This document shows positions 13,020 to 59,882 of a stretch of 64,000 nt of DNA, piece after piece. A program made the position numbers and the translations under genes. The stretch spans positions 372,001 to 436,000 of the forward strand of contig JACTVC010000019.1 in NCBI GenBank assembly GCA_018417955.1, given 5' to 3'. The stretch is from Laccaria trichodermophora (Eukaryota; Basidiomycota; Agaricomycetes; Agaricales; Hydnangiaceae). The notes below the pieces were generated by a model. The model did not search any database and was not told the origin of the DNA. It worked only from the letters and a program-made list of their open reading frames with translations. The stretch's first letter is position 1. Every line of letters starts with the position of its first letter.

Positions 13020-13070
13020 CACTTCAGTCACCCACTACCAACTGACTATTAGTCATGCAAACTCCATGTA
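13020..13070 (+). repeat. Foldback-terminus-like sequence
   Basis: CACTTCAGTCACCCAC (13020-13035) is identical over 16 nt to the tip of the foldback elements at 17102, 23353, 28290 and 34081. A weaker match (CTATTAG) follows. It abuts the 12793-13019 repeat. No opposite end was found; probably a solo end of a related element. Confidence 0.4.
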
Positions 13071-13374
13071 AGTTACATGACTAAATGTCATGGACCATAT
13101 CTAGATTCTAGATATATATGGGTCATAAAAAGCCCTGAAATCTAAAATATATTCTTGAGACATGGACCCTGAAATGTCACACAAAAATTACTTGTGTAAG
13201 AGGCTGTTGCAAGCACAGCAGGTACAAGTCCTCTTTTTTTGCAACAGGATATATAAAGAACAATTTTAGAAAAGAATTTTAATTACCAATATTCTTTGCT
13301 CTAGTCATCCAATTCACCCACAATATTTGTTAGAATTGATTCTGTTCCTATCACCTGTTTCCATTATTCAAACA

Positions 13375-14540: not shown

Positions 14541-17101
14541 TCACTTTTTAGAGTAAATTGCTACAACTGCTTGGCACTCAACCAACTCACCAGAAGAGTT
14601 TTTCTCTCGACAGATCTTCAAAGAGTCTTCAGTAAAATCAGTTAGATGCCCTTTCTTTATACAATTTCTCTTAGTCACCATACCATCATGATACCACACT
14701 TCCTTTCCAGGGGTAATTATACGAGATGTGAAGTGAAATCCACCAGAATAAATTATACCCCTCAGTGGGAGGACTGTGAATTTACCATTGGAGCCTTTCA
14801 TACGAATAGTTTTGCTAATCGAGACTCTACTTGTATTCAAACTGAATACAAGAAGTGAAGGGGGTTGGTCATACATTCGGGAAGTTGCCATTGGAGCACC
14901 ACAATCACATATGCTTGGTTCCCTCAGCCATTGTTGCAACCATTCATTAATTGACTTGTAAGTTCCATCAAGTATTGACATCACTCTTTCAGGTGGATTA
15001 TCCAAGTCTTGAACAAAACCACATGCATCACATGATACTCTACAGTAGCCCAAGCTAATATTGTGATGTGAAGTAAAAATATATGAGATTAAATCACGGA
15101 TATCAGTCCCCATTTGTCCAATTGGAAATAAATCTGAGTTTTCTTGTTTAAGTGATGCACGCACATCATTTCAAACATTTTCCAAAGTCTCCAGACCTCT
15201 GATAACTTTTTTGTATCCTTCTGATAATATTTTTCCTTGATTCCCAAATGAAAAAAATGTTTTTGTCCAGCTTTTTGGATTGTAAATCCAAATCTCACAC
15301 AAAATTGTAAATAGGGAATCATATGAACAACTGTAATTTACTGAATCCCAAAGAATCCCAACTGGAATGTCAGGTGTAGGTCCAAAGCTGGCTCTAATTT
15401 TCTTTGACTTTGGTTCATCAGTATTTAGATCCTCTTCTGCCTTTCTGTTGAGTGTAGATGCAATTGCCTTTGATCCCTGTGCAGGAACAAAGTAACCTGA
15501 TACATTTTTACTTTTCTTTTGTGATTGGATCTCAACCTCTTCAGTTGGATTATGAGTGGTTGATTTTGTGGTGAGTGTCCATGAACTATCAGTGATCACC
15601 TGAAAAGTTTGCATTGGATGCATCTCACTCCATCTAATTGGCCCCATCACATTTTGTGGACAATACCCCTTTCCTTTGAGCTGTTGATACTGACGTAAAA
15701 GAGCATTACGCAGTTGCCCATTGATTGATGCAGGTAATTGACCATTGTATCTAAGGTTGGTAATGTCATCAAGAAGCTCAAGTTCTCTAAACTCTTGTCG
15801 AAGATAACCAGATGCACCACAGGTAATCTTTGATGGGTCAAATCCTTGTACAATTACAGTTCCTTCACATGTTGCACTTCTAGAAAGAGCAGTATAGTAA
15901 GATAGGTGGTTACGACAACTATTCAAATCCACCACATTGAATGGACGAGTCTTTCCTTGTGATGCATAGTCTGTCATTGCAAAGTTAGGTAGCACAGACA
16001 CCTGAGAACGAGATATAGCAAGAGTAACATCACTTGGACAGATACATTCAATAGACATGCTGTTCTTTACTAGTGGAACTACATTTTCAGGCAATCCCTC
16101 AATCTTGATTGTCTTGGCAGGACGATCAAGCTTTACAAACAAAGTTTCAAGGATTCGTTGTCCACTTGGGCCCAACTTTGCATCCCATCCAACAACATGA
16201 CCTTCTTGACCTTTTGTTATACATAATTCTGTTGCATCATTGTTTCGTATTATGACTGGCATACCAATACACAGTGAAAGTTTTCCAGGAACATGGTCAG
16301 AGGCAGTAATGATAGAGACATTTCTGAAATGTTTGTCAGCCAACTTTGGCTGATCAGGCCGCCTTCCTGCAACACGGCTTCTTAAAAATTTAATGTCATC
16401 AGCAGTACATGCTGCATATCTCATATTTTCTAGAGCTGTCCTTAGCTTGGCATCTTCCACTGATTGTGTATTTTGTCTCATATTTTTTCGTAGAATTACA
16501 ACTGTAGTAACTTGGTGCCAAAGTGCTTTACCTATAGCAGATTGCTGCCCACGTTCTGACATGGAGGCATCCACCGATGTGCCAACATTCCCATTGTAGA
16601 GGGCCTGGCCTAATACTGGCATAAGTTGTGCAAAGTCTCCTGCAAAAATCATATTGATTCCGCCAAAGGGTACATCCATATTGTTTCTTCCTTTGGCCAG
16701 TTGTGCACTTATTTTATATAGCTCATAACATGAGATCATAGACACTTCATCTAGAAATATATAGTCTACACCATCCAAACGAGATCTAACTTGTGCCATA
16801 TTTGACTGCTCATTATGGCTTCTTCGGGAATCACTTTTTACACCTAAAGCTGAATGATATGTTGAGCCATTCAATAGAGCAGCGGCAGATCCAGTAGGTG
16901 CCAATATCATAATTCTATGTGCTTCATTACGTTTATCAAAGAGAGCTATTAATGCTTTATAACCTGAGATTTTCCTGTTCCACCCATACCTCCCAGATAC
17001 ATTTTAAGTTGCTCACTTTCTTTCATAGTTGCATGGTTGGCCACAATTCGGAATGCTCTTTCCTGCTCTTCATTCAAACTGAATGTTTGGGCAATGTCAT
17101 C
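14541..17101 (-). pseudogene. Outer Helitron gene, C-terminal part: PIF1-type helicase plus ubiquitin-protease-like domain
   Basis: The minus frame holds the PIF1 helicase motifs: Walker A (GGMGGTGKS) near 16985, PTGSAAALLNGSTYHS, Walker B DEVSM, GDFAQLMPV, LRKNMRQ, TDYASQGKTR and YTALSRSAT. It then has a ubiquitin-specific-protease-like tail with a Cys box (SVNYSCSYDSLF), two CxxC-like pairs, and a His box (GGFHFTSRI...WYHDG). Damage: a 1-base deletion just after Walker A near 16963, TGA at 15171-15173, and an internal loss of about 75 residues relative to the copy at 25667-28282 (between IITA and GKLSLCIG). The gene continues at 34082-37890; the join is interrupted by the composite element, whose 8-bp duplication is 17094-17101 and 34082-34089. 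In intact Helitrons this helicase works with an HUH nuclease in rolling-circle transposition. Confidence 0.8.
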
Positions 17102-17339
17102 CACTTCAGTCACCCACCTTGACCAAGCTATTAGCTAGGAAATCTTGAAAAATTATCCAGGCTAATAGATCCTTTGGCCGTTTATTTTTTTGCCTCTGGA
17201 GAAAAATATATTATTGCATTGGGCAAAAATGTTTGGCCTTCAATATTGTAACCAGAAATATTTGGGCTGATATTTTGTATGGAAAAATATCCTAGCCATC
17301 TGAAAGTGGTCAGAAATATTTGAAGCATATTAGAGTGGT

Positions 17340-17590
17340 AGGAAATATTTGAAGTGTTTCAGACTGGTAGGAGATTTTTAAGCTGTGTGACACTGCTGAA
17401 AAATGTTTTAGCCATGTCACACTGCTAAGAAATTTTTGAACCATATTACACTGCTGAGAAATTTTTTAGCCATGTCACACTGCTGAAAAATGTTTTGACC
17501 ATGTCACACTGCTCGGAAATGTTTTAGCCATGTCACACTGCTGAAAAATGTTTCAGCCATGTCACATAGGCAAAAAATTTCCTGCCAGTG
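17340..17590. repeat. Subterminal ~29-bp tandem array in foldback arms
   Basis: About seven copies built on GCCATGTCACACTGCTGAAA followed by an A/T-rich spacer. The same array occurs in the other three arms at about 22865-23110, 28495-28715 and 33655-33890. Its position close to the tips suggests transposase-binding sites (inference). Confidence 0.75.
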
Positions 17591-18429
17591 TCACAGAGTA
17601 TCTGGGGTCCTAGTTTCAAAAAAAAAACTTCAAAAATTTCTGACCATTCAAACTTTTATCTTCTGGATTCAACTTTTCTACAAAATTTATCATAAGGATC
17701 ATTTTGGTCCTAAACTTCCATTTTTACTTTATATCATATTTTTCTTATAGAAAAACTAGATTATATATTGCATCCAGCACTATCTATTGGTATTCAGCTA
17801 TTTGTTATATAGTTATAGCCTCTAAATTCTACTCTATCAGATAATAAAGGTTGCTACTGACTGCTCTTATGTTGGGTATATATTGATAACTATCTATAAT
17901 AGTCTAGCCTTACCTACTGAATTATTACTGATGTCTATTATTCTTGCAAATTACCAGAAGTGAATATTGGCTGATGTGTGAGCCATATTTCTTCACTGAA
18001 GTATGTTTCTGAAGACTAGAGTGAGTTTGGGAACTGTCAGATTGACTATGCCAGCTTTTTTTTTCACTTTTATAGAGGTATGTATATTTCTGAGGACTGC
18101 AGAGAGCTCTGAGGATTGTCAGTGTCTGAAGTTATAGATATGTATAATATGATGTATTCATATCTGTTAACCATAATAACATGCTGACTACCAGTACTTT
18201 ACTGTGCCCCACCTATTTCTGCAGGAATGGCTAGAATCTCCTAGAGTTCTGGTCTCTCTATTACAAATACTTGAATTTCCTTTTTTAGATATAGACCTTA
18301 GACCTTGACAACAGTACCCAACAACAAGTCCTATTTTTTTCTCATTTTTACCACATTTTCTAAATGATTTTCATTTAAAATAGTAATTGTGCCTCATTTA
18401 CTCTGATTTCAGCTCTGCAACATTATAAC

Positions 18430-19640
18430 CAATAGTGATTACCATCTAATATTTTTCTTTAATGTTTCTTGTACTTTATTGTAATTTTCTGGCAATATTT
18501 GCACAAATTACCTTATTTGGAAATATGCATAGACCATGTGCACTATACACCAACATTGTCAATAACAGTTACAGCTGAATGCAGAATGATAGGCCATGCC
18601 AGACCGACACATGCACAGGGCAGACTGTCAAATTTTCAAAGCAATATGATGGCTGAGGCTGCTGAGTTCTCACCAAGTTCTCACAATGAGTCAAATAATT
18701 GATGTTACTGTAGTACCACAGTAACATTTGAGAGTCTGCTCTATGTATGTGTTAATCTGCATAATCTATCATTCTGCATTCAGCTGTGATGGTATGTCTA
18801 TTCTTTTCCTTTTTTTTCTGTTTTTCTAGCTATATTTGTATCATTTACCATATTAGAAAATATCCACAGACCATGTATATGGTATAGAAATATTGTTAAC
18901 AATAGTCTATTATTTTTCTCTATTTCTTCTGATTTTCTGGCTATATTTTCATTCATTACCATATTTGGAAATATGCACAGACCAAGTAAACAGTACATCA
19001 ACATTATCAACAACCATTTATATCATGTAATTTTTTTTTCCTAACTTTTCTAGCTATATTTGTATTAATTACCATTTTAGGAAATGTGCACAGACCATGT
19101 ATACAACACCCCAATATTGTCAACAACAGTCCATTATTTTTCTCTTTTTCTTCTAATTTTTTGGGCTAAATTGAATTATTAAATTATTATGTTAGGAAAT
19201 GTACCCAGACCATGTATCTATTTTTCCCCCCTTTTGTCTGACTCTCTGGATATATTTCCAGAATAGGAAATGTGCACAGGCCATCAACAACAGTTTATTA
19301 TTTTTTCTCCTTTTTTTTCTGATAGCAGTGGTGGTATTGTAAGTGCCAAAATCTTTCTTGGAAAGACAGATCACATGTTATATTACATGACCAGATCATA
19401 CGATGCCCAACATAAACAACTATATAATGCATATGAGATAACTATAGTCACCTATTTTTCTCTTTTTTTTCTGATTTTCTGGCTATATTTTTACTAATTA
19501 CCATATTTGGAAATATGCACAGACCAAGTAAATAATACATCAACATTATCAACAACCATTTATGTTATGTGAATTTCTTTTCTCATTTTTGGCTATATTT
19601 TCATTAATTACTATATTAGGAAATGTGCACAGACCATGTG
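18430..19640. repeat. ~115-bp tandem repeat inside foldback arm
   Basis: The unit includes CTAGCTATATTTGTAT, ATTACCATATTAGGAAATGT, GCACAGACCATGTATA and CAACATTGTCAACAACAGT, repeated about ten times with divergence. Mirror arrays lie in the other arms (about 21100-21960, 29610-30250, 32120-32760). ORFs in these arrays are repeat translations. Confidence 0.75.
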
Positions 19641-22600
19641 AATAGTACCCCATCAATACCACTCTTCCTATTTTATTCTGATTTTATTCTGGTAAAATTC
19701 TATATATTGGAATAGATTATCTGTGCATCAAATGCGGAGCTGTCAATGAAAGTGGTATTGCAAGTGTGTGAAGGCTGAGCTGCAGCTCAGTCCAAAGAGA
19801 GGAAGAATGGGGGAAAGAGACTAGATGTAGGCATATTTTAGCAAGATTTGAGATTGCTCCAGAAATCCAAAGCTACAGTTCTTTGCATTCCTGTTTGCAC
19901 ACTGAAATTATGAAAATCATATTTGATTTTGTATCTTCATCACAGATTGTCATGTATCAGGGCATTTTGAATCTCTCAAACCCCAACTCTCATGGTGCCT
20001 CAGATATCAGATGAGATCCAGGCACAGATCATTGTTTGCTATGATGAGCAACATCTATCAGTGCTAGACATTACATGCCTTGGTGGATGTAACTGATCTC
20101 TTACTTCCCAATTTGTGGGTCACAATACAATACATATACATATGATTCCTAAACTTCATTATGCAAACAACAGTGCAAAGTACTGTAACCTCTGCTATCT
20201 CTTGGGAAGTCCATGAGTGGTTGGATACAGATGCAGGATGGGATAACACTGCAGATCTGATAAGACCTGCCCTGATAAACTATGCTGACACTTGTACTCT
20301 TGGAGTAATGTCAATATAAGTGTCTGGCAAGCTAAGTGAGTAGCTACTTATGCTCTAGAATGTCACAAGTGTAGCTGTAGTCACCTTTCCCAGAATGCTG
20401 CAGAAGGGTTTAGCAGGAAGTACTGGTCACATGATGTCTACTACCTATCCTCACACAAGCTCTCCTAAAAGAGTCACAATCTACAGCTGACCTTGTCACT
20501 CTATTCCTTCACTAGGCTTCATAAACAGTCATGAAGACAATACTCTTAGATGCAAGTGGAAACAGAGAAGATGCATGTACAAAGATGTATAAGAAACATG
20601 ACTAAAATATAACATAACCTGAGTGTGACTACTGTGATATGCATATGTAGGGTAGGATCCATTGAATAGGGAATATATCTGATAGCCTGACCCCTCATAC
20701 ATGGGACTACTAGTGACAAGTATGGAAATGGCTGGCATATATGGGATCTTATCCATCTTTTACATTATTTACTTTCCATTGCTTAGCTATTGTGTCACAT
20801 GACTCCTTTGTATACTTGTCAGTAGTAGTCATAAATACAAAGCAAGAACATGTATCAATGGGCATGGAAGTAATAGCACAAATAACAAACAAACATCTAA
20901 CTCACATAGTTATTCATATTCCATATCATGTGATATAACAGTCATGTGATACAGTCATATGATATGACATGGGACAATAAAATCATGTGACATGATCATG
21001 TGATATATAATAGTCAGGTGACATCGTCATGTGATGTGATCATGTGATGGATCATATGATCTGGTCATGTGATATAACATGTGATCTGTCTTTCCAAGAA
21101 AGATTTTGGCACTTACAATACCACCACTGCTATCAGAAAAAAAAGGAGAAAAAATAATAAACTGTTGTTGATGGCCTTTGCACATTTCCTATTCTGGAAA
21201 TATATCCAGAGAGTCAGACAAAAGGGGGGAAAAATAGATACATGGTCTGGGTACATTTCCTAACATAATAATTTAATAATTCAATTTAGCCCAAAAAATT
21301 AGAAGAAAAAGAGAAAAATAATGGACTGTTGTTGACAATATTGGGGTGTTGTATACATGGTCTGTGCACATTTCCTAAAATGGTAATTAATACAAATATA
21401 GCTAGAAAAGTTAGGAAAAAAAAATTACATGATATAAATGGTTGTTGATAATGTTGATGTACTGTTTACTTGGTCTGTGCATATTTCCAAATATGGTAAT
21501 GAATGAAAATATAGCCAGAAAATCAGAAGAAATAGAGAAAAATAATAGACTATTGTTAACAATATTTCTATACCATATACATGGTCTGTGGATATTTTCT
21601 AATATGGTAAATGATACAAATATAGCTAGAAAAACAGAAAAAAAAGGAAAAGAATAGACATACCATCACAGCTGAATGCAGAATGATAGATTATGCAGAT
21701 TAACACATACATAGAGCAGACTCTCAAATGTTACTGTGGTACTACAGTAACATCAATTATTTGACTCATTGTGAGAACTTGGTGAGAACTCAGCAGCCTC
21801 AGCCATCATATTGCTTTGAAAATTTGACAGTCTGCCCTGTGCATGTGTCGGTCTGGCATGGCCTATCATTCTGCATTCAGCTGTAACTGTTATTGACAAT
21901 GTTGGTGTATAGTGCACATGGTCTATGCATATTTCCAAATAAGGTAATTTGTGCAAATATTGCCAGAAAATTACAATAAAGTACAAGAAACATTAAAGAA
22001 AAATATTAGATGGTAATCACTATTGGTTATAATGTTGCAGAGCTGAAATCAGAGTAAATGAGGCACAATTACTATTTTAAATGAAAATCATTTAGAAAAT
22101 GTGGTAAAAATGAGAAAAAAATAGGACTTGTTGTTGGGTACTGTTGTCAAGGTCTAAGGTCTATATCTAAAAAAGGAAATTCAAGTATTTGTAATAGAGA
22201 GACCAGAACTCTAGGAGATTCTAGCCATTCCTGCAGAAATAGGTGGGGCACAGTAAAGTACTGGTAGTCAGCATGTTATTATGGTTAACAGATATGAATA
22301 CATCATATTATACATATCTATAACTTCAGACACTGACAATCCTCAGAGCTCTCTGCAGTCCTCAGAAATATACATACCTCTATAAAAGTGAAAAAAAAAG
22401 CTGGCATAGTCAATCTGACAGTTCCCAAACTCACTCTAGTCTTCAGAAACATACTTCAGTGAAGAAATATGGCTCACACATCAGCCAATATTCACTTCTG
22501 GTAATTTGCAAGAATAATAGACATCAGTAATAATTCAGTAGGTAAGGCTAGACTATTATAGATAGTTATCAATATATACCCAACATAAGAGCAGTCAGTA

Positions 22601-23353
22601 GCAACCTTTATTATCTGATAGAGTAGAATTTAGAGGCTATAACTATATAACAAATAGCTGAATACCAATAGATAGTGCTGGATGCAATATATAATCTAGT
22701 TTTTCTATAAGAAAAATATGATATAAAGTAAAAATGGAAGTTTAGGACCAAAATGATCCTTATGATAAATTTTGTAGAAAAGTTGAATCCAGAAGATAAA
22801 AGTTTGAATGGTCAGAAATTTTTGAAGTTTTTTTTTTGAAACTAGGACCCCAGATACTCTGTGACACTGGCAGGAAATTTTTTGCCTATGTGACATGGCT
22901 GAAACATTTTTCAGCAGTGTGACATGGCTAAAACATTTCCGAGCAGTGTGACATGGTCAAAACATTTTTCAGCAGTGTGACATGGCTAAAAAATTTCTCA
23001 GCAGTGTAATATGGTTCAAAAATTTCTTAGCAGTGTGACATGGCTAAAACATTTTTCAGCAGTGTCACACAGCTTAAAAATCTCCTACCAGTCTGAAACA
23101 CTTCAAATATTTCCTACCACTCTAATATGCTTCAAATATTTCTGACCACTTTCAGATGGCTAGGATATTTTTCCATACAAAATATCAGCCCAAATATTTC
23201 TGGTTACAATATTGAAGGCCAAACATTTTTGCCCAATGCAATAATATATTTTTCTCCAGAGGCAAAAAAATAAACGGCCAAAGGATCTATTAGCCTGGAT
23301 AATTTTTCAAGATTTCCTAGCTAATAGCTTGGTCAAGGTAGGTGACTGAAGTG

Positions 23354-24995
23354 TGTCAAGCAACGATGGCAGTTGTGCCTTCCATTCAATATGGAGGTGG
23401 AAAGATTAGCACAAACTTGAGTGACATAAAAAATTACATCACACCATACAGTCTAGAGCTACAGAATGCAACCTCGGTTAATTATAAATACATTGGCCAG
23501 TTTGTGCTTCAAGCTGCTCAGGCTGAGTTACGTAAAAACTCTGAACTGCTTATATGTTATATGCCATTGGAATTATTAAAGGGAAAAATATCATTGGTTC
23601 AAGCGAAATCCATTGCAAAGATGCACAATGTTACAATATCAAGCAAATCTCCAGTTGCAGAGGTATTGGAGGTTTTATCAGCACATATGTGTTCCTCATG
23701 ATGTTCTCAATTTTATACATTGTTTGCCCCAGAACAACCAGCTTTGACATCTTCTGAATGTCAAGCTAAGTGGTACAAGGGTCTCAGTAAAGCAGACAAG
23801 AAAAAAATCATTAAAAAAAATATATTAAGTTTTTAAAAGGTCCAACATATAAAATTAAGAGAAGTAAAGAGAATAAGTCTACTTATCAGACATCAAAAAT
23901 CACTAATTTCCCACCTAAACCACCCTCTAAGAAATTAATTCATAAAATAATTAGTGGATTCTGTGAAGACACACTCCCTTCCAAACTTCTTGAATCTGGA
24001 TGCGCAGTTTGTGATCAGCTAACAAAATTATCAGACATGTTAAAGCGATCTGATACCTCAAGTAACTTGGAACCCTTGATTCGAGAAGGGGCTTCCTGAA
24101 TAGAAAGAAAATCTGAACATGATGAAATCCATGAAATCTCAGGGCCTGTGATTGATGATGACTGTAAATATATATGCAATACTTGCAATAAAAGTCTAGA
24201 CAAAGGAAAAATACCTACTAATGCACTTTGTAATGGTTTTTGGCTTGGTAAAATTCCTGATGAGCTTGCTTGCTTAACTTACGTTGAACAGCTGCTCATA
24301 TCACATGTTCACCACAATCGCTGTATAATCAAAGTAGCCTCTGGATGGTACAAGATGCATGCAAATGCAATAACTTTCCAAAATCCTGTTGCAAAGATTT
24401 ATGACACTCTTCCTCCTCCTCTTGAAGAACTTGATGAAGTCTTGGCTGTTATGTTTACTGGACCTTGTCAACCTACCAAAAAAGACCTTCAACATACACC
24501 ATTGCTGGTCCGTCAAAAGCAGATTTCAAAAGCACTTGAGTGGTTAAAATTGAACCATTCTGACTACTTTGACATTGGAATATCACAGGAGAATTTGAGC
24601 CAGTACCCTTTGAGTGATGCACCAGTTGTAATTGACTATTGTCAATCAATAATAAATAGAGAGCGAGAGGCTACAAGTGTTCATGATAATGAAGAAGAGA
24701 TAGGCACTGAAGAGGGTCCTTGTACTTTTGTAGTTCAAGGGCTGACTGGAGAAGAGTATTCTACCATGTCTTTGGAGGCGATAAAGGCTCGAGCACTGAA
24801 GCATTTGACATCTAACAAAAAAATCATGTTTGCAGGCCATTCACAACAACCCAACTCCATTTATAATAACCCTCAACTATTTCCTGCTATGCTACCATGG
24901 CTATTTCCTTATGGCCTTGGAGGTATCGGAAATGATATGATACCCCATAACATATCTACTATGGCCCACAAGCGTTTACTGTTAATTTATCATGA
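23354..24995 (+). pseudogene. Cargo: DUF6570 / Helitron N-terminal gene fragment, decayed
   Basis: The plus strand encodes the region from PSIQYGGGKI through a CxxC-bearing segment (YICNTCNKSLDKGK), then ALCNGFWLGKIPDELACLTY and HNRCIIKVASG (DUF6570-like), to the start of the Helitron_like_N region (PWLFPYGLGG). It ends at HKRLLLIYHD, where the 1.17-kb repeat family begins. It is a close paralogue of 60664-61944. Relative to that copy it has TGA at 23700-23702, a 1-base loss near 23830, and CGA changed to TGA at 24097-24099. The first foldback element abuts its 5' end at TGTCAAGC, a sequence also present in the paralogue. This domain precedes the HUH/helicase region in agaricomycete Helitrons. 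Confidence 0.75.
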
Positions 24996-24999
24996 CTTG

Positions 25000-25265
25000 T
25001 GGGTGTTGGCCAGTGCTTTGCATGGCATGTATGAGTCCTTCCTGTCGACTCTAAATTTAATTTTGAGAAATTGGTCATGTAACCAACCTCCTAACATCCC
25101 ATCAGCTACAATGACATGTAATCACTTTATTATTTTCTGAGTTTTCTTCTATATGTGCAAATAGACTCTAAGCCCTGAGCCTAGCCGTCAATATCATGGC
25201 AACTTGTGGATGTGGGCCAGTGCTTCGCATGGCATGTATGAGTCCTTTCTGTGGACCTCACATGC
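25000..25265 (+). repeat. Two end fragments of the 1.17-kb hairpin repeat family
   Basis: Both pieces start directly after CTTG (24996-24999 and 25203-25206) with TGGGTGTTGGCC and TGGATGTGGGCC, matching the same terminus of the copies at 39543 and 50207. The first cuts the Helitron gene in codon YHD. Both are truncated. Confidence 0.65.
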
Positions 25266-25325
25266 TGAAAAATATCTAGAATAACTTTCTTCTTAAAAAC
25301 CATATTTTTATATTTTTATTGGCAA

Positions 25326-25487
25326 GGGATGCAAGCCACATTAACTTGAACCAAATTATTGTGAAGCAATTGTAAAGAAATTTCAAATAATTTTGGAGAA
25401 ACAATGTCTGAAAGATTGTAATATTATTTGAGGTTTATTTACAATTATCTACAATTATCATTTCAAATTAATGTAGCTTGCATTCCA
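25326..25487. repeat. Small inverted repeat in the cargo
   Basis: GATGCAAGCCACATTAACTT near 25328-25350 pairs imperfectly with 25462-25485. AT-rich interior. Possibly a MITE or a terminal hairpin; no target duplication checked. The rest of 25266-25666 has no gene. Confidence 0.35.
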
Positions 25488-25666
25488 TGTTGTAAAGATC
25501 TTAATCTCATTTTTATTTATGATTCCAGATTTTTTTAATCTTTTTGTCACCTTCTTGGTTTGACAATGAGCACAGAATGTAAAGTAATAATTTCTATATT
25601 GAATGATCATAATTATATTTTTCTACTAATATTTTAATGTTAAATTTACCAAGACAAAGTTCTAAT

Positions 25667-28282
25667 TTAAAGTTGAGAATATACAGCTAAAACAAGTTCC
25701 TGATCTTCATAGTATCTAAGATCATTATTGCTTTTATCATCCAGCTGCCCATCTTCTATGCATTTATTTTTGGTGGTGATCCCATCATGGAACCAAACTT
25801 TACCCTCAGATGAGAATACTCTAGAGGTAAAATGATTGTCTCCATGGTATATGATCCCTCTTAGCCTCAGTAAGACTTCTTCTCCATTTACCACAAACTT
25901 TACCTTGTGACTAGTTTTGGTATTACAGTATGGGTACTCCAGGATGATAATCTTTGGAACCTCTGCATAGGATACATGCTCAATCATTTCACCTGAGCAA
26001 CCCCCACAAATTTCTGTAGATGGCTTCTGAATTGATCCTATCCATTTTGAAGTTGATGCTGGTATAGGGTCAGATGCATGTAGAACATATCCCAGTGTAT
26101 CATCCACTTCATATGCATCTCCACAGTCTGAACATATTATTTCAGCAACTGCATTATATTTTTCATACTTAAGCATTTCAAATGTAAGTTGTCCAATGCT
26201 GGCTCCTGTTTTGCCCATAGGAAATTTGATAGGATCTAAATTATGAAGATCATGTCTAAGTTCATCTCTTACATTTTCTAAAGTAAGTGTTCCTTCAAGC
26301 ACCTTGTTGAAACCAGCTGCCAATGCACCTAAATAACCTTGGTTGATCTCTGTAAAATTTGCAGTCCACCTCAGAGGATCTATGTTCCAAATATGATATA
26401 AAATCACAAATAAGCTATCATATGCACAACTGTAATTTACACTATCCCATTGAAGTCCCAGCTTGATGCTAGACCTAGGCTGCAGTATTTTTTTACTCTT
26501 TTTCTTTATATTAATCTCATCATCACCATCCAGCTTATGCTTGACTGCAACTGATCCCTTGGCTGGGACAAAAGTTGAAGGTTTCTTGGGTTGCTCTGCT
26601 GTCTTATCTTTGCCTTTCTTGATTATCTGCCATGGACTGTCTGTAACCACAGGTAGTATATCCATTGGATCACTTTCACTCCACCTCAAAGATGCATCTG
26701 TTTTCTCTGGAACATATTCTGTACCTTTCCAGTCTTGGAAATTTCTGATTAATGAATTCCTTGTATATCCTATAACACAAGAAGAAAGTGACCCTTCATA
26801 TCTAAGCCTGGTAATTTCATCCAAAAGTTCTTGTTCTCTGAGTTCCTGCCTAAGATATTTTGCACATCCTCTAGTAATAATGCTGGGTTCAAAGCCTTGC
26901 AGAATGATGGTTCCAGCTGCACTTGCACTTCTGGAGAGACAAGTGTAGTAAGACATATGAGTATGGCAGCTGTTGAGATGTACAACATTGTATGGTCTAG
27001 TTTTTCCCTGAGCTGCATAATCTGTCATTCCAAAATTAGGTAGAACCCAGACTTGTTGTCTTTCTATAGACTCCTTCAGATCACTAGGGAATGTACATGT
27101 AATAGTTTTAGTTCCCTTAACTAAAGGCACTACATTTTCTGGAAGCCCAGCTATTTGAATAGTTTTTGAAGGCTTATCCAATTTTACAAATAGAGTGTCC
27201 AGTATTCTCTTTCCATGTGGACCTTTCTTTGCCTGCCATCCAACTACAAATCCTTCTTGACCTTTTGTTATGCACAGCTCAGTTGCATCATTGTTTCTAA
27301 TCATCACAGGCATCCCAAGGCAGAGTGAAAGCTTTCCAGCAAAGTGTTCAGTTGACCCATGTCTGACATTCCAGATTTGATGTTGATCATCAAAATCAAT
27401 TTCATTTGACTTGTGCTTTGATTTTGAAGCAGCCTTTGATTTTCCCCACTTTGTTTTATTAGCTGGATCAGCATCCTTTCCCCACTTATCTACAGAATAA
27501 AAATGGGTCAATTTTTGGCCTGTCTCCTCAGCAAATCTTTCACACCCCATTTGATTGATTTGATCTTTTTGTGTGTGTCTTCCACATATAATTGCCACAT
27601 TTCTGAATTCCTTTGAAGCTATCTTAGGTCTTCCTGGCTTTTTACTGGCTTGAAGAGTTCTCAAAAATTTAATGTCTTCAGCAGTACAATTTCCATATCT
27701 CATATTGACCAATGCTTTTCTCAGAGATGCATCTTCAGGAGTCTGAGTTTTCTGCCTCATATTCTCTCTAAGTATGACTACAGTTGTAACCTGATGCCAG
27801 AGAGCTTTTCCTACAGCTGCTTCTTGACCACCTGGCTTCAAGCCTGAATGGACTTGTGTTCCAACTGAGTGACTGTATGGAGATTGACCACCAACAGGTG
27901 GTAATTGGGCAAAATCACCAGCAAATATCATATTGATACCACCATATGGCTCATTGAAGTTATTCAGTGCTTTGGCCAGCTGTGCAGCAATTTTATACAT
28001 GTCATGGCATGAGAGCATTGATACTTCATCTAAGAATATATAGTCAACTCCATCTAGTCTAGCTCTGACTTGAGCAATGCTTGTAGCCTCATTTCTGATA
28101 CCCATTCCACTCATTGGCACACCCAAAAATGAATGATAAGTTGATCCATTCAGAAGAGCAGCTGATGATCCTGTTGGTCCAAGTACAATGAATCTATGAG
28201 ACTCATTTCTCTGTTGAAAAAAATAAATGAGGGCTTTGAAGACTTGTGATTTTCCAGTACCACCCATGCCACCCAGATACAT
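25667..28282 (-). CDS. Cargo: intact PIF1-type helicase fused to a ubiquitin-specific-protease-like domain
   Basis: An 871-codon ORF with no interruption. Helicase motifs in order: Walker A GGMGGTGKS (residues 4-12), PTGSSAALLNGSTYHS, Walker B DEVSM (85-89), GDFAQLPP (122-129), LRENMRQ, then MTDYAAQGKTR and YTCLSRSAS. A basic/charged linker follows. From about residue 640 there is a protease-like region: Cys box (SVNYSCAYDSLF), two Cys pairs (ICSDCG, ICGGCS) like the USP zinc ribbon, and a His box (GDNHFTSRV...WFHDG). PIF1 helicases unwind DNA; the tail resembles peptidase family C19. Its ATG lies 7 bp inside the second foldback tip, and the codon two upstream is TGA, so the usual N-terminal part is missing. 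Whether it is expressed is unknown. Confidence 0.8.
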   Translation of the reverse strand: MYLGGMGGTGKSQVFKALIYFFQQRNESHRFIVLGPTGSSAALLNGSTYHSFLGVPMSGMGIRNEATSIAQVRARLDGVDYIFLDEVSMLSCHDMYKIAAQLAKALNNFNEPYGGINMIFAGDFAQLPPVGGQSPYSHSVGTQVHSGLKPGGQEAAVGKALWHQVTTVVILRENMRQKTQTPEDASLRKALVNMRYGNCTAEDIKFLRTLQASKKPGRPKIASKEFRNVAIICGRHTQKDQINQMGCERFAEETGQKLTHFYSVDKWGKDADPANKTKWGKSKAASKSKHKSNEIDFDDQHQIWNVRHGSTEHFAGKLSLCLGMPVMIRNNDATELCITKGQEGFVVGWQAKKGPHGKRILDTLFVKLDKPSKTIQIAGLPENVVPLVKGTKTITCTFPSDLKESIERQQVWVLPNFGMTDYAAQGKTRPYNVVHLNSCHTHMSYYTCLSRSASAAGTIILQGFEPSIITRGCAKYLRQELREQELLDEITRLRYEGSLSSCVIGYTRNSLIRNFQDWKGTEYVPEKTDASLRWSESDPMDILPVVTDSPWQIIKKGKDKTAEQPKKPSTFVPAKGSVAVKHKLDGDDEINIKKKSKKILQPRSSIKLGLQWDSVNYSCAYDSLFVILYHIWNIDPLRWTANFTEINQGYLGALAAGFNKVLEGTLTLENVRDELRHDLHNLDPIKFPMGKTGASIGQLTFEMLKYEKYNAVAEIICSDCGDAYEVDDTLGYVLHASDPIPASTSKWIGSIQKPSTEICGGCSGEMIEHVSYAEVPKIIILEYPYCNTKTSHKVKFVVNGEEVLLRLRGIIYHGDNHFTSRVFSSEGKVWFHDGITTKNKCIEDGQLDDKSNNDLRYYEDQELVLAVYSQL

Positions 28283-28289
28283 TTTTAAT

Positions 28290-31200
28290 CACTTCAGTCA
28301 CCCACCTTGACCAAGCTATTAGCTAGGAAATCTTGAAAAATTATCCAGGCTAATAGATCCTTTGGCCAGTTATTTTTTTGCCTCTGGAGAAAAATATATT
28401 ATTGCATTAGACAAAAATGTTTGACCTTGAATATTGTGACTGGAAATATTTGGGTTGATATATTGTATTGAAAAATATCCTGGCCATCTGAAAGTGGTCA
28501 GAAATATTTGAAGCATGTTAGAGTGGTAGGAAATGTTTGAAGTGTTTCAGACTGGTAGGAAATTTTTTAGCTGTGTGACACTGGTGAAAAATGTTTTAGC
28601 CATGTCACACTGCTAAGAAATTTTTTAGCCATGTCACACTGCTCAAAAATCTTTTAGCCTTGTCACACTGCTCAAAAATTTCTTAGCCATGTCACATAGG
28701 CAAAACATTTCCTGCCAGTGTCATGGAGTATCTGGGGTCCTAGTTTCAAAAAAAAAAACTTCAAAAATTTCTACCATTCAAACTTTTATCTTCTGGATTC
28801 AACTTTTCTACAAAATTTATCATAAAGATCATTTTGGTCCTAAACTTGCCTTTTTACTTTTATATTGTATTTTTATTATACTATATATTGCATTCAACTC
28901 TATCTATTGGTATTCAGCTATTTGTTATATAGTTATAGCCTCTGAATTCTGCTCTATCAGATAATAAAGGTTGTTACTGACTGCTCTTATATTGAGTGTA
29001 TATTAATAACTACCTATAATAGACCAGCCTTACTTACTGAATTATTACTGATGTCTATTATTCTTGCAAATTACCAGAAGTAAATATTGGCTGATGTGTG
29101 AGCCATATTTCTTCACTGTGGTAGAAGTATGTTCCTGAAGACTAGAGAGAGTTTGGGAACTGTCAGATTGACTATGCCAGCTATTTTTTTTTTCACTTTT
29201 ATAGAGGTATTATATTCCTGAGGACTGCAGAGAGCTCTGAGGATTGTCAGTGTCTAAATATGTATAACATGATATAACATGATATGATGTATTCATATCT
29301 GTTCTGTTGACCATAATGATATGTTAAATTTCTTTCTGACTACCAGTACTTTACTGTGCCTACCTATTTCTGCAGGAATGGCTAGAATCTCCCAGAATTC
29401 TGATCTCTCTATTATAAATACTTGAATTTCCTTCTTTAAATATAGACCTTAGACCTTGACAACAGTACCCAACAATAAGTTCTATTTTTTCTCATTTTTA
29501 CCACATTTTCTAAATGATTTTCATTTAAAATAGTCAATTTTCCTCATTTACTATGATTTCAGCTCTGCAACATTATAACCAATAGTGATTACCATCTACT
29601 ATTTTCTTTAATGTTTCTTGTATTTTTCTGGTTATATTTGCATAAATTACCTTATTTGGAAATATGCACAGACTATGTGCACCATACACCAACATTGTCA
29701 ATAACAGTTAATAGTATGTCTATTCTTTTTTCTATTTTCTTTTCTGTTTTTCTAGCTATATTTGTATCATTTACCATATTAGGAAATGTCCACAGACCAT
29801 GTATATGGTATCTAAATATTGTTAACAATAGTCTATTATTTTTATCTTTTTCTTCTGATTTTCTGGCTATATTTTCATTCATTACCATATTTGGAAATAT
29901 GCACAGACCAAGTAAACAATACATCAACATTATCAACAACTATTTATATCATGTGAATTTTTGTTCTAATTTTTCTAGCTATATTTGTATTAATTACCAT
30001 TTTAGGAAATGTGCACAGACCATGTATACAGTTTTTCTCTTTTTCTTCTAATTTTTTTTGGCTAAATTGAATTTTCTTTCTTATTTTTCTAGCTGTATTT
30101 GTATTAAATCATTGTATTAGAAAATGTACACAGACCACATATCTATCTCTTTTTTCCCCTTTTTGTCTGACTCTCTGGATATATTTCCATAATAGGAAAT
30201 GTGCACAGGCCATCAACAACAGTTTATTATTTTTTCTCCTTTTTTTCTGATAGCAGTGGTGGTATTGTAAGTGCCAAAATCTTTCCTGGAAGGACAGATC
30301 ACATGACTACATCACATGGTTATATCACATGACCAGATCATATGACTGTTATATGATATGTCACATGACCACATCACATGGCAATGTCACCTGACTATCA
30401 TATCACATGATTGTGTCACATGATATAGAACATGAACAACTAAAGGATGAGTTAGATGTTTGTTCGTTATTTGTGCTATCACTTACATGCCTATCCATGC
30501 ATGTCCTTGCTCAGTATTTATGACTACTACTGACAAGTATAAAAAGGAGTCATGTGACACAATAGCTAAGCAATGGAAAGTAAATAATGGATAAGATCCC
30601 ATATCTGCCAGCTATTTCCATACTTGTCAGTAGTAGTCACATGTGTGAGGGGTCAGGCTATCAGGTATATTCCCTATTCAATGCATCCTACATATGCGTG
30701 TCACAGTAGTCACACTTCTTATGCATCTTTTTACATGCATCTTCTCCATTTCTGCTTGAGTATTGTCTTCATGACTCTTTGTCAAGCTTAGCAAAGGAAT
30801 AGAGTGACAAGGTCAGCTGTAGATTGTGACTCTTTTAGGAGAGCTCATGACTCTCTGTCTTTGTGTGCTCATTATTTTTCCCTTCCCTACATTCTCGCAG
30901 GATCCTGCTAAACCTTTCTGCGGCATTCTGGGAAAGGCAAGTACAGTTACACTTGTGACATTCCAGGGCATAAGTAGCTACTCACTTAGCTTGATTCTGC
31001 AAGACTCTTAGATTCAAGACTTCTCGCAGGTTTTCACACTGTAATGCAAACCGTCAATTCCTCCTTAGCTTGCCAGACACTTATATTGTTATCTATGAGA
31101 ACCTTATAATACTCTGCTACCTTGTAATTAGTTCTTGCAACATGCTTACTCTTCTACCACCACTGCATCTATTGCTTTCAGGTGTGTTATCATAGTTCAC

Positions 31201-34081
31201 CCTGATAGCCAAGTGGTATTGTGTATTATTAGGTCACTAACATTACTCCAAGAGTACAAGTATCAGCACAGTTTATCAGGGCAGCAGGTCTTATCAGATC
31301 TGCAGTGTTATCCTGACGGTTTGCATTACAGTGTGAAAACCTGCGAGAAGTCTTGAATCTAAGAGTCTTGCAGAATCAAGCTAAGTGAGTAGCTACTTAT
31401 GCCCTGGAATGTCACAAGTGTAACTGTACTTGCCTTTCCCAGAATGCCGCAGAAAGGTTTAGCAGGATCCTGCGAGAATGTAGGGAAGGGAAAAATAATG
31501 AGCACACAAAGACAGAGAGTCATGAGCTCTCCTAAAAGAGTCACAATCTACAGCTGACCTTGTCACTCTATTCCTTTGCTAAGCTTGACAAAGAGTCATG
31601 AAGACAATACTCAAGCAGAAATGGAGAAGATGCATGTAAAAAGATGCATAAGAAGTGTGACTACTGTGACACGCATATGTAGGATGCATTGAATAGGGAA
31701 TATACCTGATAGCCTGACCCCTCACACATGTGACTACTACTGACAAGTATGGAAATAGCTGGCAGATATGGGATCTTATCCATTATTTACTTTCCATTGC
31801 TTAGCTATTGTGTCACATGACTCCTTTTTATACTTGTCAGTAGTAGTCATAAATACTGAGCAAGGACATGCATGGATAGGCATGTAAGTGATAGCACAAA
31901 TAACGAACAAACATCTAACTCATCCTTTAGTTGTTCATGTTCTATATCATGTGACACAATCATGTGATATGATAGTCAGGTGACATTGCCATGTGATGTG
32001 GTCATGTGACATATCATATAACAGTCATATGATCTGGTCATGTGATATAACCATGTGATGTAGTCATGTGATCTGTCCTTCCAGGAAAGATTTTGGCACT
32101 TACAATACCACCACTGCTATCAGAAAAAAAGGAGAAAAAATAATAAACTGTTGTTGATGGCCTGTGCACATTTCCTATTATGGAAATATATCCAGAGAGT
32201 CAGACAAAAAGGGGAAAAAAGAGATAGATATGTGGTCTGTGTACATTTTCTAATACAATGATTTAATACAAATACAGCTAGAAAAATAAGAAAGAAAATT
32301 CAATTTAGCCAAAAAAAATTAGAAGAAAAAGAGAAAAACTGTATACATGGTCTGTGCACATTTCCTAAAATGGTAATTAATACAAATATAGCTAGAAAAA
32401 TTAGAACAAAAATTCACATGATATAAATAGTTGTTGATAATGTTGATGTATTGTTTACTTGGTCTGTGCATATTTCCAAATATGGTAATGAATGAAAATA
32501 TAGCCAGAAAATCAGAAGAAAAAGATAAAAATAATAGACTATTGTTAACAATATTTAGATACCATATACATGGTCTGTGGACATTTCCTAATATGGTAAA
32601 TGATACAAATATAGCTAGAAAAACAGAAAAGAAAATAGAAAAAAGAATAGACATACTATTAACTGTTATTGACAATGTTGGTGTATGGTGCACATAGTCT
32701 GTGCATATTTCCAAATAAGGTAATTTATGCAAATATAACCAGAAAAATACAAGAAACATTAAAGAAAATAGTAGATGGTAATCACTATTGGTTATAATGT
32801 TGCAGAGCTGAAATCATAGTAAATGAGGAAAATTGACTATTTTAAATGAAAATCATTTAGAAAATGTGGTAAAAATGAGAAAAAATAGAACTTATTGTTG
32901 GGTACTGTTGTCAAGGTCTAAGGTCTATATTTAAAGAAGGAAATTCAAGTATTTATAATAGAGAGATCAGAATTCTGGGAGATTCTAGCCATTCCTGCAG
33001 AAATAGGTAGGCACAGTAAAGTACTGGTAGTCAGAAAGAAATTTAACATATCATTATGGTCAACAGAACAGATATGAATACATCATATCATGTTATATCA
33101 TGTTATACATATTTAGACACTGACAATCCTCAGAGCTCTCTGCAGTCCTCAGGAATATAATACCTCTATAAAAGTGAAAAAAAAAATAGCTGGCATAGTC
33201 AATCTGACAGTTCCCAAACTCTCTCTAGTCTTCAGGAACATACTTCTACCACAGTGAAGAAATATGGCTCACACATCAGCCAATATTTACTTCTGGTAAT
33301 TTGCAAGAATAATAGACATCAGTAATAATTCAGTAAGTAAGGCTGGTCTATTATAGGTAGTTATTAATATACACTCAATATAAGAGCAGTCAGTAACAAC
33401 CTTTATTATCTGATAGAGCAGAATTCAGAGGCTATAACTATATAACAAATAGCTGAATACCAATAGATAGAGTTGAATGCAATATATAGTATAATAAAAA
33501 TACAATATAAAAGTAAAAAGGCAAGTTTAGGACCAAAATGATCTTTATGATAAATTTTGTAGAAAAGTTGAATCCAGAAGATAAAAGTTTGAATGGTAGA
33601 AATTTTTGAAGTTTCTTTTTTTTGAAACTAGGACCCCAGATACTCCATGACACTGGCAGGAAATGTTTTGCCTATGTGACATGGCTAAGAAATTTTTGAG
33701 CAGTGTGACAAGGCTAAAAGATTTTTGAGCAGTGTGACATGGCTAAAAAATTTCTTAGCAGTGTGACATGGCTAAAACATTTTTCACCAGTGTCACACAG
33801 CTAAAAAATTTCCTACCAGTCTGAAACACTTCAAACATTTCCTACCACTCTAACATGCTTCAAATATTTCTGACCACTTTCAGATGGCCAGGATATTTTT
33901 CAATACAATATATCAACCCAAATATTTCCAGTCACAATATTCAAGGTCAAACATTTTTGTCTAATGCAATAATATATTTTTCTCCAGAGGCAAAAAAATA
34001 ACTGGCCAAAGGATCTATTAGCCTGGATAATTTTTCAAGATTTCCTAGCTAATAGCTTGGTCAAAGTGGGTGACTGAAGTG
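28290..34081. mobile_element. Foldback element 2 (arms about 2.77 kb, loop 257 bp)
   Basis: Arms 28290-31056 and 31314-34081 are inverted copies of 2767 and 2768 bp. The 146-residue reading at 29611-30051 (plus) reappears unchanged at 32319-32759 (minus), so the arms are nearly identical, while they differ visibly from element 1. Loop 31057-31313 is unique. The tips carry the same 16-nt terminus as element 1. The arms hold the same subterminal and internal arrays. No coding gene is seen. Confidence 0.85.
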
Positions 34082-34788
34082 ATGTCATCTATCATTTTCT
34101 GTTCTTCTTCTTTTTTTGCTTTGAATTTTTTGTCCAAGTAGCTGATATCATCTACAACCACTTCATTTTGTGATGTCCCATTTCTTTCTTTATCTGCTTT
34201 AGCTGTCAGAAGATTCTTTGAACGTGTTTCAAGAAAGAGTTTCTTGAGTGACTGTACAAGAACATTCCACTGAGATCCAGTTCGTTCTTCTTCTGGCTTG
34301 AAGTTTACATCCACTGGATCGATATTGCCAATGCATGGATCAAGCCATCCTGCATTTTGAACCACATTCTCAATTCTGTTCATTTCATGAAGCTTCTGAT
34401 TATTGATGCTGTTGGGGTCTCCCAACATATACAGTGATTCATCAATATCTAATGGACCATCTTCACCACAGTCAGGAAAGTTAGCATCAAGTTCACCCCC
34501 AGTGTCATCCCATGAGCCTAGTATTCCTTCGCTTTCACCTTTCTTCTTCATCTGTGCAGAATAGTCATCTCTGGCATCATTGCATTCATACTTGATATTG
34601 AAATTATTCATAAGCTCAAGTTGTCTTGCTGAAAATGCATAGCCACAAAAAGCTTCATCCCAAGACTCAACTTCTAGTTTCAAATCTTTGCCATTTCGCC
34701 AAGGTTTGAACAAAGAAAGCATAGTAGAACAGTAATATTCTCTGTCACCTTGATCACGGCGAGGTAAGCCTCCACCAACAAAATTTGG
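34082..34788 (-). pseudogene. Outer Helitron gene, middle part
   Basis: The minus frame 34722-34082 is open and encodes an acidic, charged region (CGYAFSARQLELMNNF near the start, EEEQKMIDDI at the end). It runs into the composite element at the ATGTCATC duplication. Its upstream edge, 34780-34788 (AAAATTTGG), is the 9-bp duplication of the 1.85-kb insertion. This segment links the Helitron N-domain part (36641-37890) to the helicase part (14541-17101). No stop was seen within it, so this part was intact when interrupted. Confidence 0.75.
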
Positions 34789-35159
34789 AGGTCTTTACCT
34801 TCCCCGGGTTATTCCGTATGGAATCCATATGGAATCCATGGAATCCATGGATAATTCCATATGGATTCCATGGAATCAATGTTGGCTGAGGACCCAGCCA
34901 ATTTCTGATTCCATGGACATGATGGATTCCATATGGAATGATCCTGGAATGGTCATGGAATGATTAATTCCATATGGACTCCATATGGATTCCATTGGAT
35001 TCCATATGGAATGCAGGCATATCCACATTTATTCCATGGAACAGTCCATATGGATTCCATGGAGCAGTTCATATGGATTCCATGGAAGGAATTAATGACC
35101 ATTATACCATTAGAATACATATAGATATAGTGTCCTTACTATATTTAAGTAAAAAATAA

Positions 35160-37890: not shown

Positions 37891-38381
37891 TACGAGTCCT
37901 CTGAGTTTACGAAGAGACTCGTTTATTACCCTGTATCTCAAGGATTTTTTCAGCGTTCTAACGCAGAATTTAGCCTTTCTCCCACGAAAATTGATGGCTT
38001 CCCACAGTCAGGGATTTTGAAGACTTTGTCCAGGGTTTGTAGTCTTCTGTTAGCATTTTTTGTAGTCAACACTACAATGTATTACTGACTGTGTGAACTG
38101 TCTGGTGATGGCGCGGATTCTTGCTCAAAATGGTCATCACCGGTTAAAGGCACGTTATATAGCCGACACAAGTCATATCGTTTTGAATGGGCATCTATAT
38201 CAACATCGACAAGGACGGTGATGGTCCTCATTTCCCATGACTGATTCTTCCTTCATTATATATACTAAATGCTTTTATAATCATTTCATCTGGCACCCAT
38301 GGGATATGAACTTTGACCCACTGACCAAATACACAACAATGCAACCTGTGGGCCGATCAAGTTGACAAGGCATTTTGCATG
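37886..38381 (+). repeat. Fragment beginning with the conserved-loop hairpin; rest unassigned
   Basis: 37892-37922 forms a hairpin: ACGAGT, bulged C, CTCT, loop GAGTTTACGA, AGAG, ACTCGT. It has the same loop and bulge as the terminus of the 1.17-kb repeats. It marks the 5' break of the Helitron gene. The following 460 bp contain no recognisable gene. Confidence 0.5.
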
Positions 38382-39543
38382 TTATGAGTCCTTACGAGTT
38401 TACGAGTAAGACTCATTCTTTATCAACTGAGGACTTAGGCAAAATTTTCATTCATTGATTGATTGATTCATTGATTTACCTTTCATCACCGCAGGAACTT
38501 TTTCCCTTAAACAAAAAAGCAGCCATAAAATTGGGGAAAATAACTAGAAAATTGGGAAAAAATATGTAAAAAATCAGAATATTGCTTAGTAAGTTGGGGA
38601 GGCTGTGTTCAGGGTTCAGGGTCAATATCTAAATATAGAAACAAGCTAAAAGTTGCCAGAAAATCAGAAAAAATACCCAAAAATCAAGAGGGATCTTCTC
38701 TGTTGCCATGGTGTTGAAGGGGCTGTGTTCAGGGTTCAGGGTCCATATCTAAATATAGAACAAAGTAAGGAAAATGGCTAGCAAATTTTAAAAAAATGAG
38801 TAAAAAATCAAAATGATACTTTTTTCTGGCTATAAGGTATGAGGGGGCTATGTCCAGTGTTCAGGGTCCATATCCAAATATGAAAAATCAAGACACCTAT
38901 GTAAAAATAGTATCATATTATGCAATGTGACTATATCATCAGACCAGCCTTCTTGCACTTTGAGATATTGGTCAAAAATGCATGACAATTTCCAAAAAGT
39001 GTCCAATTTTTTCAGTATTTTGTGTTTTTCTCAATGAGGAATGGTCTGCATGACATTATTTATATATATTTGTAAAGGTAAGGAAAGGGGCTACAATTTT
39101 TGTTAATGGAGCTAAGTGAGAGGCTGTGTTTCTGATACCGTGGGAATTTTAACCCAAAATGGAAAATTATCACAGATATATAGAGCATGCTATTATAGGT
39201 CACAAAATATAATTAACAAGATATATGCAAACAGGACTGTGGGAATATTTTACCATAAACAGAAAAATAGTTATAAATTTGGGAAAATTTGCTATAAAAT
39301 CAAAAAAAAAAAGAAAGGAAAAATAAGAATAGTACACATTGTTGCTATGATATTGATGGCTAGACTCAGGGCTCAGGGTCCATTTGCAAATATAGAAGAA
39401 AACTCAGAAAATCAGAAAGTGATTACATGTTATTGCAGCTGATGGGATGTCAGAAGGGTGGTCACATGACCAATTTCCGAAATCAAATTTAGAGTCCACA
39501 GGAAGGACTCATACATGCCATGCAAAGCACTGGCCCACACCCA
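38382..39543 (+). mobile_element. 1.17-kb hairpin repeat, copy L
   Basis: One end is the hairpin 38384-38416 (ATGAGT, bulged C, CTTAC, loop GAGTTTACGA, GTAAG, ACTCAT). The other end is GGCCCACACCCA at 39543, preceded by a GAGTCC/GGACTC stem. The interior has three or four ~110-bp tandem units (phrase GTTCAGGGTCCATATC). Flanks are CATG (38378-38381) and CAAG (39544-39547). It is an inverted copy of 50207-51384. No inverted termini or coding capacity. Confidence 0.65.
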
Positions 39544-39755
39544 CAAGTTCCTATGTCAAGTGTGTTATGGGTGGTATCAGATGTGAGCATGAATGTGATA
39601 TCCAAAGAACCCCAAGAAGAAGGTAAATGAATGACAGTATATTGCCAAAACCTTGCAGAAGGTTTCAGCAGTTCCTATCGTCACGTATTGTTGTTTGGCA
39701 ATGACATTGATCACAAATATTTATAGTTGTACATCAGATTTTTTAAATGCCTCTC

Positions 39756-59839: not shown

Positions 59840-59882
59840 ATCAAGTCATGTGATTGTTCAACTTTCAACATTCTGATGCGGA

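Follow-up and report, generated by a model that had tools for sequence, protein, structure and literature searches.

How did two complete foldback elements, with other DNA between them, come to sit inside a helicase gene of Laccaria trichodermophora with a single target duplication around all of it? The window we analyzed is a stretch of 64,000 nucleotides (C11:372001-436000) from a 59-Mb genome assembled in 77 contigs, and all of our comparisons are made within that one assembly. We believe, and comparison of sequences makes it highly probable, that the 16,980-bp block in this window is a composite transposon, or macrotransposon, in which foldback A, a cargo and foldback B moved from a donor locus as a unit. 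An earlier note on this DNA had proposed a composite transposon. That reading is now supported by empty sites, by a second copy of the block and by flanks of A that are of the type expected at a donor.

The block and the gene it interrupts

Self-comparison divides the block (17102-34081) into foldback A, 4,936 bp of cargo and foldback B, which bears out the earlier description of two foldbacks on either side of 4.9 kb. Foldback A (17102-23353) has arms of 2,303 bp that are 99.83% identical (17102-19404 and 21051-23353) around a loop at 19405-21050. Foldback B (28290-34081) has arms of about 2.77 kb that are 99.93% identical (28290-31056 and about 31314-34081) and a loop at about 31057-31313. 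Both have the structure of a foldback, long inverted arms with internal repeats and a shorter loop. They have their termini in common and the longer stretches of arm that align are 84-92% identical, so these are related but distinct foldbacks of one family.

The sequence ATGTCATC lies on both sides of the block, at 17094-17101 and 34082-34089. There is one target duplication around the whole, and neither A nor B has one of its own in the window. The inner flanks are unlike each other, as TGTCAAGC follows A and TTTTTAAT precedes B. On both points, a perfect 8-bp duplication that bounds the block rather than each element and inner flanks that do not match, the earlier note was right. The octamer alone is not rare, with five plus-strand copies in the window. 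The chance that two random 8-bp flanks match at this base composition is about 2e-5, and the survey described below has 68 same-contig pairs of a plus and a minus end no more than 40 kb apart, for which 0.0014 chance matches are expected. We reject independent insertions of A and B at this place because neither has its own duplication and their outer flanks are adjacent in paralogs of the gene.

That gene is a PIF1-like helicase. Its C-terminal part is at 15174-17003 on the minus strand (PF05970, 9e-19) and the N-terminal side of the frame is at 34082-34794 on the same strand, without a Pfam match of its own. The genome has many close copies of it. Twelve other listed copies span the insertion point with 95-98% identity, and 11 of the 12 were fetched. 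The block is absent from all 11 and ten of them read through a single exact ATGTCATC, which is the empty site that had been proposed as a check. The eleventh (L124, C23:2098042-2098442) has a 2-bp deletion precisely at the target site; it may have been left by an excision, or it may be a small deletion of the usual kind. It had also been claimed that excision of the block rejoins an open helicase frame exactly. This holds at the junction, where the joined flanks are open for 235 codons before and 50 codons after, but it does not hold for the whole gene. The joined frame ends after those 50 codons because the window copy has a 1-bp deletion near 16955, about 146 bp from the junction, that is absent in all seven aligned paralogs. 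A 601-bp stretch is open throughout in six of the seven; in the other, L032, the frame stops about 50 bp beyond the site.

The cargo (23354-28289), for which two of the genomic candidates that were scored match over the full length, is made of fragments of two genes truncated by A and B, with no intact passenger gene. A DUF6570 gene fragment (24100-25137, plus strand; PF20209, 3e-42) belongs to the family that A originally inserted into, and a longer frame of that family is present in the window at 59877-61955. A PIF1-like helicase fragment (25670-28288, minus strand; PF05970, 1e-20) is truncated by B at TTTTTAAT and is uninterrupted in five fetched relatives. The idea that a helicase gene is carried as cargo must therefore be given up, since the block carries just a piece of such a gene, which B truncates. 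We see no sign in these sequences of a selected cargo. From the kinds of gene involved and from the neighbourhood of both sequences, we take the DUF6570 and PIF1-like fragments to be probable parts of Helitrons. A shared repeat occurs at 24995-25203, 38374-39548 and 50202-51391, with about 90% identity, and one of its pieces lies within the cargo. An Rfam search of the window gave no match exceeding gathering scores.

A second copy and a candidate donor

Among the candidates scored, the entire block is found once more. This copy is on the same contig, at C11:543837-560815, and is inverted relative to the one in the window. A search for further 17-kb copies with different 8-bp flanks had been suggested, and its outcome is not the one foreseen. 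Another locus does hold the block between other outer flanks, as a composite unit should, but there is no block-level duplication there. Over 16,980 bp the two copies differ by 9 point or 1-bp changes and by an inverted A loop. Thirteen differences were printed, and the four near the edges of the A loop are accounted for by the flip of the loop. The loop of A (window 19405-21050) is inverted relative to that of A at C11:554564-560815, so the arms of A recombine or flip.

The flanks of A in the second copy are ...CTTGTCAAG and TGTCAAGCAA. TGTCAAG(C) is present on both sides, so A has a 7-8 bp duplication of its own there. The uninterrupted site reads CTTGTCAAGCAA at window position 60663 and in all four fetched relatives; the example in the window (TTGTCAAGCAA, 60663-60670, plus strand) lies within the 59877-61955 frame. 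Since A stands between these repeats in a site that is continuous in relatives, this is A at its first insertion. It follows that the TGTCAAG beside A in the window (23354-23360) is half of A's original target duplication, carried along with the block, and the other half is beside A at C11:560816. A donor should keep such a duplication. Because A is in its original insertion at C11:543837-560815, that locus resembles the donor and the window resembles the recipient, so the direction of movement looks like one from there to the window.

Foldback B has a more involved history at the same locus. Its inner flank (28282-28289), B's original target, is helicase sequence (...ACATTTTTAAT) that is continuous in the five relatives already mentioned, and its outer flank is unlike this in both copies of the block. 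In the second copy the outer flank, AATTGTAC, is another helicase sequence, and the window has TTGTACAATTACAG near 15855. Since the two flanks come from different helicase sequences, B at the donor was itself a junction product already, and the mismatch between AATTGTAC and TTTTTAAT means the donor was rearranged earlier, in an event that is itself unseen. Recombination between two foldbacks is the likely cause, since we found 12 adjacent facing end pairs, this B included, with flanks that do not match.

Those pairs come from a survey of 106 foldback ends, 100 listed and six others. A count of 166 ends is reached when up to 2 mismatches are allowed, and about 60 of these variant ends are outside the survey. 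The matching pairs were reduced from 35 to 32 by removing the window block, a pair that reflects the flank common to both block copies, and a pair 176 kb apart on C12. The survey thus has 32 foldbacks with their own 7-8 bp target duplications, 17 with 8 bp and 15 with 7 bp, including A in the second copy. Single foldbacks with their own duplications were something the earlier note proposed to look for, and their presence argues that foldback ends are used by a transposase. Just one block-level duplication was found across the 106 ends read, so macrotransposition by foldback pairs may be rare. The 12 non-matching pairs, each putatively the two ends of one element, include C6:69192-74947, C12:3080856-3090671 and C67:1485967-1492617. 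Their sequence suggests flank exchange, or recombination, between foldbacks. None of their reciprocal partners is among the 106 ends.

Other arrangements were seen in the survey as well. The foldbacks at C67:78852-84423 and C45:123863-129456 have two private end variants in common with the order swapped, and look like one element in opposite orientations; the one on C45 has an 8-bp duplication and the one on C67 has none. At C77:1432167-1444136 foldback ends are 12 kb apart and their outward flanks are identical over the 20 bases read. This is a palindrome extending past the ends, which would be either a large inverted duplication or an assembly artefact.

Several large units were considered and set aside. 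The two foldbacks about 4.9 kb apart at C4:865530-881224 are not a further composite, because each has its own duplication. The 18-kb unit at C12:4615051-4633089 is a foldback into which other DNA has inserted, with 369-bp direct repeats that are identical; this insertion (C12:4620786-4632183, L131-L132), 11.4 kb long with the repeats at its termini, is probably a young LTR retrotransposon. The units at C39:24188-43624 and C77:1080478-1101016 each enclose a further foldback, nested and with a duplication of its own. The 13-kb unit at C39:84006-96965 was considered as an autonomous element, and its longest stop-free frame is 172 aa. Finally, the matching flanks 176 kb apart at C12:3144257/3320089 belong to one foldback split by another unit, to which we return below.

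Transposition, repair or coincidence

Our scenario for the movement has three steps. A and B would have inserted separately at the donor locus, now C11:543837-560815. A transposase would then have paired the outer end of A with the outer end of B as its termini and cut there. Everything between those termini would have been inserted into a ATGTCATC site in a third gene, the helicase, with 8 bp duplicated. That the donor is kept is expected if the move came after replication or if the donor was refilled from the sister chromatid, a cell-cycle step that we infer. The transposase would most likely be of the KDZ family and act in trans, because the foldbacks carry a terminus of KDZ-encoding elements.

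It could be argued instead that a single foldback was already present at ATGTCATC, and that a double-strand break was mended by copying A, cargo and B from C11:543 kb through homologous gap repair. Foldbacks are numerous and alike, the 12 facing end pairs have unlike flanks, and the inverted A loop means that arms do recombine. Homology of up to 179 bases was also available on the left, where the junction is less constrained, since six surveyed ends match the outer arm of A over that length. We nevertheless think this repair improbable. At the right-hand end, the arms of B differ at position 17 from the end, and the outer arm is CACTTCAGTCACCCACTTTGACC (34059-34081, minus strand), with T17. 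This 23-mer occurs at just two places in the 59-Mb genome as an exact string, so T17 ends with a further mismatch could escape the search, and both are outer ends of B, one in each block. Compared over 300 bp, the 29 foldback ends taken from elsewhere all have their first mismatch with the outer B end at position 17. If T17 is private to the two blocks, the last 16 bases are the one stretch in which a foldback resident at ATGTCATC could have taken part in an exchange, unless the resident itself had T17. The block thus seems to have brought along its own right end to within 16 bases of the tip. Transposition accounts for this, and recombination with a foldback already in place does so less well, as a stretch of 16 bases is too short for ordinary homologous repair. 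On the left, the outer 2,175 bp of the A arm are identical between the window and the donor. All 11 fetched paralogs are free of a foldback at the site. A circle arising from recombination of A with B does not help either, since it would integrate with hybrid elements and not with a complete A and a complete B. T17 could have passed from one near-identical block to the other by gene conversion at a later time, and it is for this reason that we put our confidence in composite transposition no higher than we do.

Two other explanations deserve less credit. One is that two unrelated insertions, or an assembly join, happen to have matching outer flanks. Long palindromic repeats of this kind assemble poorly and we see the assembly without its reads, but we consider such a coincidence very unlikely given the small probability of a flank match calculated above. 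The flanks are also neighbours in the paralogs, and the two copies, which differ at nine positions and in loop orientation, were hence separately resolved. The other, which we find hardest to credit, is that a single large element, with foldback ends and more foldbacks inside it, makes up the block, rather than two elements and captured DNA. Bigger foldback-ended units with duplications, of 13-20 kb, are known in this genome. However, the 13-kb one on C39 consists of just one foldback, whose arms are 2.85 kb long, the 19.4- and 20.5-kb units contain the nested foldbacks described above, and the 18-kb unit contains the insertion with direct repeats. In the window, moreover, the inner foldback ends are at distinct sites in known sequences, and one half-duplication is still at the donor.

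KDZ relatives and known composite systems

For the KDZ transposase domain, PF18758, 182 matches are reported in the genome. At the starting locus, C34:2447545, a foldback-type end lies about 2 kb from the domain, and from this the position of the end was predicted at eight loci of the same group. The predicted terminus, CACTTCAGTCACCCACCTTGAACAAGCTATTAG..., is at the expected 1.9-2.0 kb from the domain at six of the eight, and over its first 60 bases it differs from the foldback end at one position in those six. It is absent at the predicted distance at C12:4567 kb and C67:76 kb. With the starting observation included, a foldback-type terminus is about 2 kb from the KDZ domain at 7 of 9 places. 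The domain match in L098 has a value of 1e-61. Termini of a related kind (CACTTCAGTCACCCA and then A, G or T) lie 2.6-3.7 kb from a second KDZ group in 10 of the 66 listed KDZ domains on C1-C19, all of which were covered; the mean in 2,000 random placements is 0.84 and the maximum 5, and the count for termini that face the wrong way is three. Since the same terminus is found on KDZ-encoding elements and on the foldbacks, the foldbacks are best seen, from their sequence, as non-autonomous relatives of KDZ transposons.

They are also KDZ-like in their CA..TG ends and in the 7-8 bp duplications of the 32 elements. No transposase was found in A or B in the list of open reading frames and a Pfam scan (one 164-aa frame in an arm was scanned and matched no family), and no KDZ match lies inside the block among the matches listed of the 182, so on these searches the block does not qualify as an autonomous KDZ element. 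A left end for the KDZ elements in L097 or L098 was not found by way of a flanking duplication, and no two-ended KDZ element was delimited. A short element end at window 13020-13190 has the 16-base terminus CACTTCAGTCACCCAC common to the foldbacks, and a 171-bp copy of it, 100% identical, is at L097 903-1073. Zisupton is described with 8-bp duplications and Kyakuja with 7-bp duplications and CA..TG termini (PMC12730594). In Cryptococcus, KDZ1 is described with 241-bp inverted repeats and 8-bp duplications, and KDZ2 and KDZ3 with duplications of 4-8 bp (PMC12810828). The foldbacks resemble fungal KDZ transposons in CA..TG ends, 7-8 bp duplications and a common terminus, but they are mostly long inverted arms with no transposase recognised. 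Their mix of 7- and 8-bp duplications would fit KDZ broadly, whether Kyakuja or Zisupton.

In bacterial composite transposons such as Tn10 and Tn5 a pair of elements, acting through their outer ends, moves the DNA that separates them, with a single duplication around the whole. The earlier note saw that logic here. The use of outer ends and the one duplication are indeed alike, but the analogy fails as to element type, because our elements are KDZ-related and are not IS elements. The block lacks a flanking pair of IS elements of which at least one encodes its transposase; no transposase is recognised in A or B by the scans given above, and there is no selectable cargo. In Drosophila, pairs of FB elements mobilise intervening DNA. 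FB and Galileo resemble the foldbacks in their long, internally repetitive inverted arms, and also in the ectopic recombination that is described between Galileo copies (PMC2775673, PMC3573991). The same papers place Galileo, by its transposase, in the P-element superfamily, whereas the elements here are KDZ-related. Maize has macrotransposons in which the termini of nearby Ac elements bound a larger moving unit, with an 8-bp duplication, and the original can stay while a second copy inserts (PMC9910405). Our block likewise has outer termini as its bounds, an 8-bp duplication and a probable original that persists; it differs in having KDZ-related foldbacks with 2-3 kb arms, a fungal host and a cargo of gene fragments. 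The composite process is thus already known from maize. What appears new to us is the type of element, its fungal host and the pairing of a donor with a recipient. Among the papers listed by searches of the open-access literature there was no description of macrotransposition or of foldback composites in fungi, and nothing relevant on foldbacks in fungi.

The unit that splits a foldback arm on C12 is a segment of 170,041 bp (C12:3144764-3314804) with CACTA-type inverted ends, CACTGCGGGCATTGGCTTATG, and the 3-bp duplication TCT. We use the CACTA label as an assumption drawn from the CACTG ends and the 3-bp duplication, not from a transposase. When up to 2 mismatches are allowed there are 16 ends of this type, of which ten form five facing pairs, 12, 14, 56, 72 and 170 kb apart, and six are unpaired. 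The other four pairs are on C16, C9, C4 and C27, and all five have perfect 3-bp duplications (TGT, TGC, AAT, AGT and TCT). To judge from their sequence, with contents read in the 170-kb unit over about 7 kb at one end and 2 kb at the other, these units may be giant, nested or composite. It is a tentative idea, and we would not expect it to hold, that ends of more than one transposon superfamily, KDZ-type foldbacks and CACTA-type ends, act as portable brackets, and that composite-type transposition is a regular route for large pieces. If it were true, KDZ foldbacks (as in the 17-kb block) and CACTA-type ends (as in the 12-170 kb units) would move whatever DNA lies between them.

The importance of this locus is that composite transposition can be read within one genome, from a recipient, its empty sites, a probable donor and an end variant, private to the two blocks, by which homologous recombination is made less likely. 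It indicates that KDZ-related foldbacks may serve as vehicles able to carry other DNA.
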